DNA of 47,074 nucleotides, taken from NCBI GenBank assembly GCA_013812145.1, contig JACCTY010000101.1, positions 1-47,074 on the forward strand, given 5' to 3'. The position numbers and the translations under genes are program-made. The notes below the pieces were generated by a model that saw nothing but the letters and a program-made list of their open reading frames with translations, had not been told where the DNA came from and made no database searches. The first letter of the stretch is position 1; the number at the start of each line of letters is the position of its first letter. Of this stretch, positions 25,999-30,846 are shown piece by piece. This DNA comes from Geodermatophilaceae bacterium. GTDB lineage: Bacteria; Actinomycetota; Actinomycetes; Mycobacteriales; Geodermatophilaceae.

Positions 25999-26511
25999 GT
26001 GAGCGCGATGCCGGCGCCGGAGAGGCGACCGCGGCGAAGCCCGAGCGGTTCACCGACGACGTCCTCCCGCCCGCCCCATCGGGTGGCCGGCCGGTCCGCC
26101 GAGCCGGTGCGGGCCTCGGTGCGGCATCCCGCCGCGATGAGCGGTCAGGCCGCGGCGCGGCGCGCGCCGTTCGTGGCGGTCGTCCTGCTCATCATCGGCT
26201 GCGGCCTGGTCGCTCTGCTCGTGCTCAACACTGCGATCGCGGCGGACTCCTTTGCTGAGCGATCCCTGAGCCAGCAGATCGAGCAGTTGCAGTTGCGCGA
26301 ACAGCAGCTGCGACAGGAGGTCAGCGCCGCGCACGCCCCCGCAGCGCTGGCGCAGGCAGCGGCCGAGCAGGGGATGATCCCGAGCGGCACGTCCGCTTTC
26401 CTCGTCATCGCGCCGGACGGCACCACGCAGGTGGTCGGCAAGGCCAAGCCGGCTTCGCGTCAGCCGCCGGCCGGAGCAAACCCGCCTGCCGCACCCGGAG
26501 GAAATGGATGA
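25999..26511 (+). CDS. ftsL: Cell division protein FtsL
   Basis: A bitopic divisome protein of 170 residues: a basic, Ser/Pro-rich cytoplasmic N-terminus (1-55), one transmembrane helix (APFVAVVLLIIGCGLVALLV), a leucine-zipper-like periplasmic coiled coil (QQIEQLQLREQQLRQEV), then a DUF-like PAALAQAAAEQGMIP motif and a Pro-rich tail. It would act with DivIC/FtsB and FtsQ to license FtsW-FtsI. Identity rests on topology and position between rsmH and ftsI. The GTG at 25999 is preferred because GAGG lies 7 nt upstream. It overlaps ftsI by 4 bp. Confidence 0.9.
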   Translation: MSAMPAPERRPRRSPSGSPTTSSRPPHRVAGRSAEPVRASVRHPAAMSGQAAARRAPFVAVVLLIIGCGLVALLVLNTAIAADSFAERSLSQQIEQLQLREQQLRQEVSAAHAPAALAQAAAEQGMIPSGTSAFLVIAPDGTTQVVGKAKPASRQPPAGANPPAAPGGNG

Positions 26512-28310
26512 GCGCCACCGGACTGAGTTCGCCACCGCACCGCACCGGCCGGTCTGCTCGGCCGCGCCGGAGAACCCGGCGGTTGCGGCTGTCCGATCCG
26601 CACCGGAGAGTTCATGTCGGGCTGGCCGTCGTACTGGCCATCCTCACGATCATCAGTGGCCGGTTGGTCCAGTTGCAGGGTCTGGACGGGATGAAGTACG
26701 CCGCCGCGGCCGAAGAACTGCGGTTGACCACGCTCGACCTGCCCGCTGCCCGGGGGCAGATCCTGGACCGGGACGGCAACCCGCTGGCCTACTCGGTCGA
26801 GGCCCGGGCCATCTTCGCCGACCCGGCAATGATCACCGCGCCGGGGCGGACGGCGCTCGCACTGGCTCCGCTGCTGGACGTCAACGCCGACGCGCTGATG
26901 CCCTTGCTGACCAAGGAGGGGCGGTTCGTTTACCTCGACCGCGGTCTGAACCCCTCTGTCGCGCAGGCCATCATGGCCCTGGAGCTGCCCGGGATCGGTG
27001 AACTCGTCGAGCAGCGCCGGGAGTACCCGGCCCAGTGGACGGCCGCTCAGGTCATCGGGTTCGTCGGACGCGACGACACCGGCCTGGCCGGAATCGAGGA
27101 CCAGTTCAACGACGTGCTGACTGGCACGCCCGGGCAGCTCGTGTACGAGCAGGGCCGGTTCGGGCTGCCGATCCCGGCGGCGACGCACAGCCTGCAGGCG
27201 GCGGTACCCGGGAGCGACGTCCAGCTGACCCTGGATCAGGACCTGCAGTTCACGTTGGAGAAGGCGATCGCCGTCGCCAACGACAATCCGGGAGTCAGCA
27301 CCGTGCAGGCCGTGGTCCTCGACGTGGCCACCGGGCAGGTGCTCGCGATGGCGGGTAGTCCCGGATACGACGCCTCGGACCCCGGGTCGGTCAGCGGCGA
27401 CCAGCTGGGCAACCCGGTGGTCTCGCACGTGATCGAGCCCGGCTCGGTGAACAAGATGGTCACGATCGCCGGCGCTCTGGAGGAGGGACTGATCACGCCG
27501 GACACCGTGATGAACGTCCCTGACCACCTCGCGGTGTCCGACATCGTCATCAGCGATGCCTGGGGGCACGACCCGATCGACTTCACCGCCACCGGCATCA
27601 TCGGCAAGTCCAGCAACGTGGGCACCGTCATGCTCGCTCAGCGCCTCGGCGACGCGCGGCTGGAGGAATACCTGCGCCGGTTCGGGCTGGGGACCGCGAC
27701 CGGAATCGAGCTTCCCGCCGAGAGCGACGGAATCCTGGTGCCCCACACGGAATGGTCGGGCAGCCAGGCCGGGACCATCCCGTTCGGGCAGGGCATCTCG
27801 ATGACCGTTTTGCAGATGGCATCGATGTACCAGGCGGTCGCGAACGACGGCGTACTGGTGCCGCCGCGGATAGTCGACCGGGTCATCGGCCCCGACGGGA
27901 CCGTCCGTGACCAGCCGGCCCCGGAGCCGCGACGGGCCATCGAGTCCGACACCGCAGCGGACCTGCGCTACATGCTCGAGTCGGTGACGAACGAAGGCGG
28001 CACGGCGCCGCTGGCGCGCATCGACGGCTATCGCGTGGCCGGCAAGACCGGCACCGCCCAGCGGCCCAACCCCGAGTGCCGCTGCTACGCCGGCGGCGGT
28101 TACTGGGCGACGTTCGCCGGGTTCGCCCCGGCCGACGACCCCCGCTACGTGATCGCGATCAGTATCGAGCAGCCCGACGGCAGCGGGCACGGAGGCACGA
28201 TCGCCGCGCCGGTGTTCACCTCGATCATGTCGTTCGCGTTGGGGGACAATGGCGTTGCTCCGACCGGCACGCCGACCCCGGAGTTCCGGCTGACCACCGA
28301 TGACGCCTAG
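26508..28310 (+). CDS. ftsI: Septal peptidoglycan transpeptidase FtsI (PBP3/PbpB)
   Basis: Class B penicillin-binding protein of 600 residues that cross-links septal peptidoglycan with FtsW. A basic cytoplasmic tail and one transmembrane helix (about 36-56) precede the pedestal domain (DLPAARGQILDRDGNPLAYS). Transpeptidase motifs are all present: SVNK in EPGSVNK (catalytic S313, K316), SSN (368-370) and KTG in AGKTGTAQ (513-515). No PASTA domain is present. An unusual ECRCYAGG with two cysteines follows KTG. Downstream the operon is interrupted by about 1 kb of degenerate DNA before murE. Confidence 0.96.
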   Translation: MSATGLSSPPHRTGRSARPRRRTRRLRLSDPHRRVHVGLAVVLAILTIISGRLVQLQGLDGMKYAAAAEELRLTTLDLPAARGQILDRDGNPLAYSVEARAIFADPAMITAPGRTALALAPLLDVNADALMPLLTKEGRFVYLDRGLNPSVAQAIMALELPGIGELVEQRREYPAQWTAAQVIGFVGRDDTGLAGIEDQFNDVLTGTPGQLVYEQGRFGLPIPAATHSLQAAVPGSDVQLTLDQDLQFTLEKAIAVANDNPGVSTVQAVVLDVATGQVLAMAGSPGYDASDPGSVSGDQLGNPVVSHVIEPGSVNKMVTIAGALEEGLITPDTVMNVPDHLAVSDIVISDAWGHDPIDFTATGIIGKSSNVGTVMLAQRLGDARLEEYLRRFGLGTATGIELPAESDGILVPHTEWSGSQAGTIPFGQGISMTVLQMASMYQAVANDGVLVPPRIVDRVIGPDGTVRDQPAPEPRRAIESDTAADLRYMLESVTNEGGTAPLARIDGYRVAGKTGTAQRPNPECRCYAGGGYWATFAGFAPADDPRYVIAISIEQPDGSGHGGTIAAPVFTSIMSFALGDNGVAPTGTPTPEFRLTTDDA

Positions 28311-28332
28311 GTCGAACTGCTGGCCGCCGGCG

Positions 28333-29007
28333 TCAGGTGAGATGGCAGCTCAGGTGCTCGCTGAGGGTGTCGTGGAGGGTGGCAAGCTGGCGGAAGGCGT
28401 CGGCGAGCGCCTAGCCGCAGGGCGAAGGTGGTCAGGGTTGCCCGGACGTCCGGCGCTAAGCCCTCGGCCGACATCTGGGCCAGCTTCTCAAGCCCTTCGC
28501 TCCCGCCGATCGAGCCCGGTGGCATCGCGACGTCGTGGCCACCGAGCCACGCCGCCGCGGATGGCAGGAGGTCTCGGATCGCATCGTGGACGTCGCGCCG
28601 GGCGACTCTGCTGATGTCTGTCCGCATCGGGTAGTCGCCGTCGGCGTAGGCGACGGTCTCCCCCTTCCAAGCGGCGCAAAGATCTCGGTCGGCAGTCGAG
28701 ACCACGGATAACCCTGCGGGTCGTGGAAGGTGATGGATTCATCGTCGATCTGCACGCCGAGCACGAAGTGGTCAGCCCCGACGGGTCCGCCAGCGCCGGT
28801 TTGATGCCGTAGCAAACCCAGCTCTAGCGGCCCCAGCATCACCGGCCCCGTCGAGGAGCGGGACGCGCCCGGCGATGAGCTGGAAGCCGAAGGGTGATCC
28901 GGTCAGGGTCTCCACGACGTAGTCGCGTGGTGCGCTGCGGCCGAGCACAGCGACGAGGGTGTTGTGTAGCAGTAGGGCCCGCTGCCCACGTACGGTTGCA
29001 TGTCCAT
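28333..29007 (-). pseudogene. BtrH N-terminal-like gene, broken by several frameshifts
   Basis: Reading the minus strand from the ATG at 29007 gives MDMQPYVGSGPYCY; after a shift near 28965 the frame continues NTLVAVLGRSAPRDYVVETL and GSPFGFQLIAGRVPLLDG. A second shift near 28845 leads to GPVGADHFVLGVQIDDESI and FHDPQGYPW, a third near 28675 to WKGETVAYADGDYPMRTD and on to LEKLAQM, and a fourth near 28405 to LADAFRQLATLHDTLSEHL and a stop at 28333. The pieced protein resembles the BtrH N-terminal (butirosin H-like cysteine acyltransferase or peptidase-fold) family: YCYxNT would carry the Cys, DHFV the His and DPQG the polar residue. With four shifts it cannot be functional. It lies antisense within the dcw cluster. 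Confidence 0.65.
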
Positions 29008-29164
29008 TTCAGAGTTCCACTCTGTGACTGTCGGGTTGGGACGTAGCTGGGACGCGCCTCGCGTGACCGGAAGTTGGAACTCGGTGATCCGGTGGCGCAG
29101 ATCATCAGGGCACCGTCGCCGCGGGCGACACGCCGTTTTGACCAAGATCGGCGGAGGGGGACCA

Positions 29165-29257
29165 GCCCCCTGTGACAGCCGGTCCCCCCTTCAAGGGCGG
29201 CAACACCGGCTCGATCCGCGCCCACAGCTCATCGGTCAACACCGCAGTACGCGACAT
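29165..29257 (-). mobile_element. IS5-type transposase N-terminal fragment
   Basis: The minus-strand frame starting at 29257 reads MSRTAVLTDELWARIEPVLP then PLKGG, the typical N-terminus of IS5-family transposases (LTDELWxxIEPLLP). Only about 30 residues remain; no catalytic DDE region and no terminal inverted repeats are seen. It is upstream of the broken BtrH-like gene and is a likely witness of how the foreign segment arrived. The flanks 29008-29164 and 29258-29327 show no other feature. Confidence 0.6.
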
Positions 29258-29327
29258 GACCTGACAGTCGGCCTCAGACGCGCTCAGATAGGAGACACGC
29301 CTAGCCGGTAACGAACTCATGGATGGG

Positions 29328-29333
29328 TACCCT
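29328..29333 (+). promoter_or_regulatory. Candidate -10 (TACCCT) of murE
   Basis: TACCCT fits TANNNT and is followed by exactly 7 nt and the GTG at 29341, with no Shine-Dalgarno site, so a leaderless murE transcript is plausible. It would re-start transcription of murE-ftsQ after the 1-kb degenerate insert. No clear -35 is visible. Confidence 0.45.
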
Positions 29334-29340
29334 CGCCGGT

Positions 29341-30846
29341 GTGCCTCTTCACCCCCGGCCGGCCCGGCCGGCGCCGCGGAGGCTGGCCGAGTTGGCAGCC
29401 GCGTTCGGCCTGCCGGTGCCGGTCGGCGGCGGCGAGACCGTGCTGACCGGCCTGACGCTGGACAGCCGCGCGGTGCGCATCGGTGACCTGTACGCCGCCC
29501 TGCCCGGGACCAATGTGCACGGGGCAAAGTTCGTCGGTCAGGCAGTCGGGGCCGGTGCGGTCGCCGTACTGACCGACCCCGGCGGCGAGGCGGCGGCCGC
29601 GGTCGGCTCCGTGCCGGTCCTGGTGGCCGATGACCCGAGGGCGCGGCTGGGGGAAATCGCGGCCTGGGTTTACGGCCGCACCGGCCTGCCGGTGATCGGG
29701 ATCACCGGCACCAACGGCAAGACGACGGTGGTCCACCTCCTCGAGGCGGGGCTCCGCGCGGCCGGGGTCGTCCCCGGGCTGATCGGCACCGTCGAGACCC
29801 GGATCGGCGACGCGGCGGTCCCTAGCACGCGGACGACGCCGGAGGCGCCCGACCTGCACGCGCTCCTCGCCGTCATGGCCGAGCGTGGCGTGCAGGCGGT
29901 GGCCATGGAGGTGTCCAGCCATGCGCTGGCGCAGCACCGCGTGGACGGCCTGCGGTTCGCCGTCGGGGCATTCACCAACCTCTCGCAGGACCATCTGGAC
30001 TTCCACGGCGACCTGGAGCGGTACTTCGACGCCAAGGCGCTGCTCTTCGACGGCCGTTGCGAGCACGAGGTGGTCAACGTCGACGATACCTACGGCCGGC
30101 GACTCGTCGGGCCGGCGACGATCACGGTGTCCGCCAACGGCGACCCGCGGGCGCACTGGCGAGCGGGTGACATCACGACGGATGCACGGGGTGGCAGCCG
30201 GTTCACCGTCAGCGGACCTGACGGGGTGAGCTTTGCGGCCGAGGTCGGACTGCCAGGGCGCTTCAACGTCGCCAATGCCCTGCTGGCGCTCGCGATCCTG
30301 GCCACGGCCGGCGTCGATCCGGCGCGGGCGGCGGCTGGAATCGGGCGGGCGACCGTGCCGGGTCGGATGGAACCGGTGACCGCCGGGCAGCCGTTCACCG
30401 CGCTGGTCGACTATGCCCACACCCCCGACGCGGTCAGCACGCTGCTCGCGGCGCTGCGCCCGATCACGCCAGGCCAGCTGATCGTCGTACTCGGCTGCGG
30501 CGGCGACCGCGACCAGGGCAAGCGCGAGCTGATGGGGGCGGCCGCCGCCCGCGGAGCGGATCTGCTCATGGTGACCGACGACAACCCGCGTTCGGAGGAT
30601 GCCGGCGCCATCCGCGCGGCGATGCTGCGCGGGGTCTACGAGGTGAGTCCCGATGCCCGGGCCGAGGTGCTGGAGGTCGCCGGGCGGCGGGAGGCCATCG
30701 CCGCTGCCGTAGCCCGTGCCGGTTCCGCGGACACCGTCGTCGTCGCCGGCAAGGGGCACGAGCAGGGACAGGAGACCGACGGCGTCCTCCGGCCCTTCGA
30801 TGACCGCCGGATCCTCGCCGAGCTGATCGGGTCGCTCGTCCGGTGA
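29341..30846 (+). CDS. murE: UDP-MurNAc-L-Ala-D-Glu:meso-DAP ligase MurE
   Basis: Adds the third stem-peptide residue in peptidoglycan synthesis (cytoplasm, ATP-dependent). The 501-residue protein has the N-terminal UDP-binding domain (LTLDSRAV), the P-loop GITGTNGKTT, the central motif SQDHLDFHG, the carbamylated-Lys region DAKALLFD, and the specificity motif DNPR (DDNPRSED), which selects meso-diaminopimelate over lysine. I prefer the GTG at 29341 (PLHPRPARP) over the ATG at 29323 because of the TANNNT-N7-start spacing and similarity to usual N-termini. Its end overlaps murF by 4 bp. Confidence 0.95.
   Translation: MPLHPRPARPAPRRLAELAAAFGLPVPVGGGETVLTGLTLDSRAVRIGDLYAALPGTNVHGAKFVGQAVGAGAVAVLTDPGGEAAAAVGSVPVLVADDPRARLGEIAAWVYGRTGLPVIGITGTNGKTTVVHLLEAGLRAAGVVPGLIGTVETRIGDAAVPSTRTTPEAPDLHALLAVMAERGVQAVAMEVSSHALAQHRVDGLRFAVGAFTNLSQDHLDFHGDLERYFDAKALLFDGRCEHEVVNVDDTYGRRLVGPATITVSANGDPRAHWRAGDITTDARGGSRFTVSGPDGVSFAAEVGLPGRFNVANALLALAILATAGVDPARAAAGIGRATVPGRMEPVTAGQPFTALVDYAHTPDAVSTLLAALRPITPGQLIVVLGCGGDRDQGKRELMGAAAARGADLLMVTDDNPRSEDAGAIRAAMLRGVYEVSPDARAEVLEVAGRREAIAAAVARAGSADTVVVAGKGHEQGQETDGVLRPFDDRRILAELIGSLVR

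Follow-up and report, generated by a model that had tools for sequence, protein, structure and literature searches.

An IS5-type remnant and a decayed BtrH-like gene between ftsI and murE in a Geodermatophilaceae genome

In Mycobacterium tuberculosis, according to the part of the report available to us (PMC3605390), murE comes first in its transcript, the region upstream of it has promoter activity, and a promoter element is assigned to a position 123 nt 5' of the GTG start codon. The accessible portion of a second study of this species (PMC3898074) describes transcription starts associated with TANNNT and leaderless mRNAs as common, and leaderless mRNAs as depleted among genes of active growth. 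A mycobacterial element of the IS5 family is, in the partial text of its description (PMC9241763), flanked by four-base direct repeats of CTAG. Here we describe an insert at the junction of ftsI and murE in the dcw cluster of a member of the Geodermatophilaceae. The stretch of DNA that was analysed, hereafter the window, is one whole contig of 47,074 bases from a draft genome of 3.08 Mb.

Position and extent of the insert

An earlier note on this DNA had proposed that a degenerate insertion, extending from 28311 to 29340, splits ftsI from murE, and had suggested a comparison of the junction in related genomes. In the three congeners (G001, G002 and G003) the ftsI stop codon is followed by 19, 21 and 21 nt, respectively, then by GGGTACCC and the murE start region, and the site is empty in all three. 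In the window, the matching 20-nt spacer, which has CTAGCCGGT in common with that of G003, is placed 3' of 990 extra bases. The proposed split of the two genes is therefore borne out, as is the start of the insertion. Its end has to be moved: the insert stops at 29300 and is followed by CTAG (29301–29304), the end at 29340 having included the ancestral spacer. The features of the locus are as follows.

26508..28310, + strand: ftsI, penicillin-binding protein (Pfam Transpeptidase E 1.4e-76, PBP_dimer E 2.7e-13); ends in CTAG
28307..28310, + strand: left CTAG, containing the ftsI stop codon TAG; CTAG also ends ftsI in G001, G002 and G003
28311..29300, no strand: inserted mosaic of 990 bp, without counterpart in the congeners, delimited by comparison of ftsI–murE gaps
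28333..29007, - strand: BtrH-like/C39-like pseudogene, broken by frame changes and missing codons, read with a profile of 79 intact relatives
29140..29153, - strand: one arm (CGCCGATCTTGGTC) of a dispersed palindromic repeat of 63–64 nt; second arm absent
29187..29300, - strand: IS5-type element, with the tip GCGTGTCTCC and the N-terminal part (about 26 codons) of a DUF4096 transposase, matching elements in G047 and G076
29301..29304, + strand: repeated CTAG (probable target-site duplication), adjoining the IS tip; direct repeat of the left CTAG
29305..29324, + strand: ancestral ftsI–murE spacer pushed 3' by the insert; 20 nt, the same length class as the 19–21 nt of the congeners
29328..29333, + strand: TACCCT, putative -10 box of murE, 7 nt 5' of GTG; 3' of the insert and intact
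29341..30846, + strand: murE, likely starting at GTG 29341 (Pfam Mur ligase domains; start chosen by conservation)

In order to place this gap among those of the family, we searched 96 genomes, 95 of which returned a murE match, and counted the distance from ftsI to the codon that corresponds in the alignment to codon 1 of murE. It was 6–172 nt in all 80 other measurable family loci and 1,030 nt in the window; none of the 80, with gaps of at most 172 nt, was seen to hold an intact gene at this site. The measurement left out 14 of the 95 loci, one without an ftsI match and 13 without a murE match in the script because their stretch held too little of murE. Searches against Rfam gave just two matches, both far under their gathering scores. 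A second long gap, independent of this one, was observed in another family of the order (G038, locus L278), where 1,244 nt separate ftsI and murE, no obvious gene was found in that stretch by eye, and the murE signature described below is kept.

Edges of the insert, the IS5-type remnant and the palindromic repeat

A single CTAG is found at the ftsI stop in each of the three congeners, against two in the window, where this tetranucleotide is rare (15 observed versus 53.8 expected from shuffles). The IS tip GCGTGTCTCC ends at 29300, directly 5' of the repeated CTAG. The remnant to which this tip belongs is 80% identical at the DNA level to an element in G047 (116 alignment columns) and 74% identical to one in G076 (119 columns), and its transposase scrap matches Pfam DUF4096 with an E value of 0.0013, under the curated cut-off; the IS5-type transposase fragment recognized in the earlier note is thus confirmed. 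The remnant resembles IS5-family elements with DUF4096 and DDE frames, which are probably of the IS427-like group. The G047 and G076 copies have CTAG near both ends, albeit nine bases off the left tip in G047, and the G076 copy, 989 bp long, encodes DUF4096 and DDE frames. A complete transposase with a DDE domain is absent from the insert, in which about 26 codons remain.

The left edge is of a different nature. The second terminal inverted repeat is absent there: GTCGAACTGC stands in the place of the GACGTGTCTCC expected from G047 and G076. Both CTAGs are enclosed in an 8-nt direct repeat, ACGCCTAG, with a spacing of 994 nt, which is common to the end of ftsI and to the IS tip plus CTAG. Together with the at least three unrelated pieces that the insert holds, these features speak for a left edge that did not come about by transposition of all 990 bp but arose by capture at the 8-nt microhomology, or by a later rearrangement within an IS that had landed at CTAG. 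A later deletion would, however, need to end precisely at the left CTAG, and no other part of the IS was recognised in the insert, the matches to IS loci among the 80 listed all falling within 29185–29301. We put the chances of such an origin of the left end a little below even. In one-ended transposition, a truncated IS5-type end would have mobilised the BtrH-like DNA with a surrogate left end, leaving an insert flanked by CTAG with no second terminal repeat; this route we consider unlikely.

The repeat arm at 29140–29153 belongs to a palindrome of the layout CGCCGATCTTGGTC-N4-CAACGTCTC...GAGAGGTTG-N4-GACCAAGATCGGCG, in which the spacing is strict and the centre varies; examples are found in the window's own genome (contig C129, 60460–60522) and in G003 (contig C89, 25329–25391). 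Copies with perfect 14-nt arms number eight in the own genome and five in G003, and none occur in G001, G002 or G012. With exact 12-nt arms, two of the 96 family genomes are positive, the own genome with nine copies and G003 with five. When one mismatch per arm was allowed, one pair with the same spacing appeared in each of G001 and G002, and the repeat is therefore not confined to two species. Fourteen copies of the palindrome fold as hairpins of -33.6 to -48.9 kcal/mol. It may be a palindrome that is mobile, or it may act as a paired protein-binding site; both are guesses. Just beyond the arm, GGCGTGTCGCC (29124–29134, reverse strand) matches the IS tip at 10 of 11 positions; with an E value of 1.3, it was set aside as a possible chance match and not taken for a second IS tip.

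The decayed gene and its intact relatives

The remainder of the mosaic, beyond the IS tip with its transposase codons and the single palindromic arm, includes a pseudogene on the reverse strand, in agreement with the orientation given in the earlier note. For its analysis, a profile was built from 79 relatives (the best 80 of 83 were fetched and one was dropped for length). Read from 29007 to 28333, the pseudogene matches profile positions 1–19, 14–54, 91–150 and 137–245, alternating between two frames. Three frame changes, near profile positions 14, 54/91 and 150, are well supported, and at the second of them positions 55–90 are missing between contiguous pieces, which corresponds to a loss of about 36 codons. 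The earlier count of about four frameshifts is thus reasonable; the fourth, together with a further loss of about 39 codons towards the C-terminus, is weakly supported because the last piece (profile positions 285–304) scores -3.0 bits. Owing to three or four frame changes and the loss of codons at one place or more, no intact open reading frame is left in the pseudogene.

Since the genome is a draft of 186 contigs, an intact gene disguised by base-calling errors, or a chimeric join, has to be weighed. Base-calling errors alone would not give the loss of about 36 codons that coincides with a frame change. In addition, CTAG is repeated precisely, the ancestral spacer is preserved, and a search of the own genome found the insert nowhere else. 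We regard an artefact of sequencing or assembly as highly improbable.

Intact homologues, a search for which had also been proposed, do exist, the closest one found being 47% identical to the read-through of the pseudogene; none was seen at the ftsI–murE site in the 80 other measurable loci. Matches to the pseudogene were found in three of the 97 genomes searched, the own genome included, but in none of the three congeners, and no further match was found in the own genome. No donor was found among plasmids, all 78 records being less than 60% identical. The relatives measure about 300 residues and, among the best 80 of 83, come from actinobacteria, rhizobia, other alphaproteobacteria and some Bacillota; Cys11, His120 and Asp136 are invariant in the 20 that were aligned.

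The label 'BtrH-like' used in the earlier note gains support from these intact relatives and not from the broken pieces themselves. BtrH_N was matched by nine of 20 intact relatives (best E 1.6e-4) and Peptidase_C39 by eight of 20; the broken pieces, their read-through and the relatives L025 and L026 gave no match to BtrH_N. An AlphaFold2 model was obtained for relative L032 (mean pLDDT 86.2), the sequence of which matches neither family. Foldseek aligned this model to AziU3/U2 (E 2.6e-10), CtaG (E 1.8e-7) and CcbD (E 6.2e-6), and the predicted fold of the intact relatives is papain/C39-like. We assume that AziU3, CtaG and CcbD belong with BtrH, of which no structure is present among the Foldseek matches listed; a literature search for work joining any two of BtrH, AziU3 and CcbD found none. 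NCBIfam had no family for two intact relatives, and a PDB sequence search with one relative returned nothing convincing.

Intact relatives (L025, L036, L040 and L050–L059, among others) often stand directly 3' of a regulator-like gene, MerR-type by eye, which has matches in as many as 25 other loci among the 80. A remnant of this regulator was sought at 28990–29320, a region that includes the roughly 130 nt separating the pseudogene from the repeat arm, and was not found.

The murE start region and comparison with known systems

Downstream of the insert, TACCCT precedes the likely GTG start codon of murE by 7 nt. In order to find out how general this arrangement is, the murE start was compared across the family and the order. 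A script detected TANNNT followed, after 7–8 nt, by an in-frame GTG in 93 of the 95 loci of the family, among them that of the window; the hexamer is TAGATT in 82, and the spacing is 8 nt in 88 and 7 nt in five. Mononucleotide shuffles of the family loci gave a mean of 0.44 and a maximum of 2 loci with the signature. Both loci missed by the script, L227 and L228, in which the matches begin far inside murE, show it by eye. The survey of the order gave a murE match in 60 of 61 genomes; 28 of the 30 loci returned were examined (two already counted were omitted), one of which, G011, belongs to the family itself. TANNNT was present 6–9 nt 5' of an in-frame start in 26 of these 28 (shuffles: mean 0.46, maximum 3), in four cases at 42–102 nt upstream of the aligned codon, and was absent from L269 and L283. 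Such conservation suggests that TANNNT-N7/8-GTG is a leaderless murE promoter throughout the order, and TACCCT may well act as the working murE promoter in the window. Some caution over assuming leaderless expression of murE is called for because leaderless mRNAs are depleted among active-growth genes in M. tuberculosis, as far as the available text of that study goes. A search of partially available literature for murE together with leaderless and ftsI returned nothing relevant.

These observations bear on the earlier argument that the insertion should be polar on murE to ftsQ, its survival implying compensation; a new promoter pointing outward from the IS end would be one example. The genes from murE onward are indeed tightly packed, as had been stated, and the insert lengthens the junction by about 1 kb of decayed DNA, in which a gene runs in reverse. 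The claim is nevertheless unsupported because the murE signature, conserved in 93/95 and 26/28 loci, is intact and stands 3' of the insert. Consensus scans of the insert found no terminator and no sigma-70-type promoter (the latter scan, of 28250–29400, gave no promoter at all), and the hairpin at 29140–29200 is unremarkable given its composition (z -1.27 and -1.03). We deem polarity overcome by compensation distinctly unlikely. Read-through from ftsI, if it normally feeds murE expression, could be weakened by the insert.

We consider it likely, instead, that an insertion at the CTAG of the ftsI stop, carrying a passenger that then decayed, left the promoter-like start of murE in place and is close to neutral. 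The DNA inserted, presumably by transposition and with duplication of CTAG, would have combined an IS5-type end with a palindromic repeat, itself broken, and a gene for a BtrH-like transferase, which would then have decayed. As ftsI retains its stop codon and murE its putative leaderless-type promoter (TACCCT, 7 nt, GTG) 3' of the insert, both essential genes could be expressed, and the insert would be near-neutral. For this reading we counted the empty site in 3/3 congeners, the gaps of 6–172 nt in 80/80 loci, the rare CTAG at both edges, the murE signature (93/95 and 26/28), the lack of a consensus terminator in the insert, the long gap of G038 and, from its partially available source, the murE transcript of M. 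tuberculosis. Counted against it were the blank sigma-70 scan, the M. tuberculosis promoter 123 nt upstream and the depletion of leaderless mRNAs among active-growth genes (both from sources available in part), the 2/28 order loci without the signature, the 4/26 with it 42–102 nt upstream, and the left edge without an IS terminus.

The whole looks like an ordinary IS-linked insertion of a now-dead gene in a tolerated linker; ordinary in itself, it marks the ftsI–murE junction as a tolerated gap. Judging from sequence conservation, murE appears to possess a promoter of its own, conserved in this order of actinobacteria. If so, the dcw cluster would consist of two transcription units meeting at ftsI–murE, and polarity arguments across this junction would be unsafe.

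Compared with complete IS5-family elements, which encode DUF4096 and DDE frames, the window shares the tip GCGTGTCTCC, the CTAG at the edge and the N-terminal DUF4096 codons; it has one end and about 26 codons, whereas the DDE part and the other terminus are missing. The near-equal size of the complete G076 copy (989 bp) and the insert (990 bp) may be due to chance. Papain-like natural-product transferases (AziU3/U2, CtaG and CcbD) resemble the model of L032, whereas the copy in the window is itself broken; the relatives of the pseudogene are putative transferases. In M. tuberculosis, ftsI/pbpB presumably lies beyond the intact genes preceding murE, where the window has a pseudogene. As far as the available part of the M. 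tuberculosis report extends, the murE transcript of its dcw region is separate from the upstream genes, and murE of the window likewise has a promoter-like start; the promoter is assigned to 123 nt 5' of GTG in M. tuberculosis, whereas the box in the window lies 7 nt 5' of GTG.
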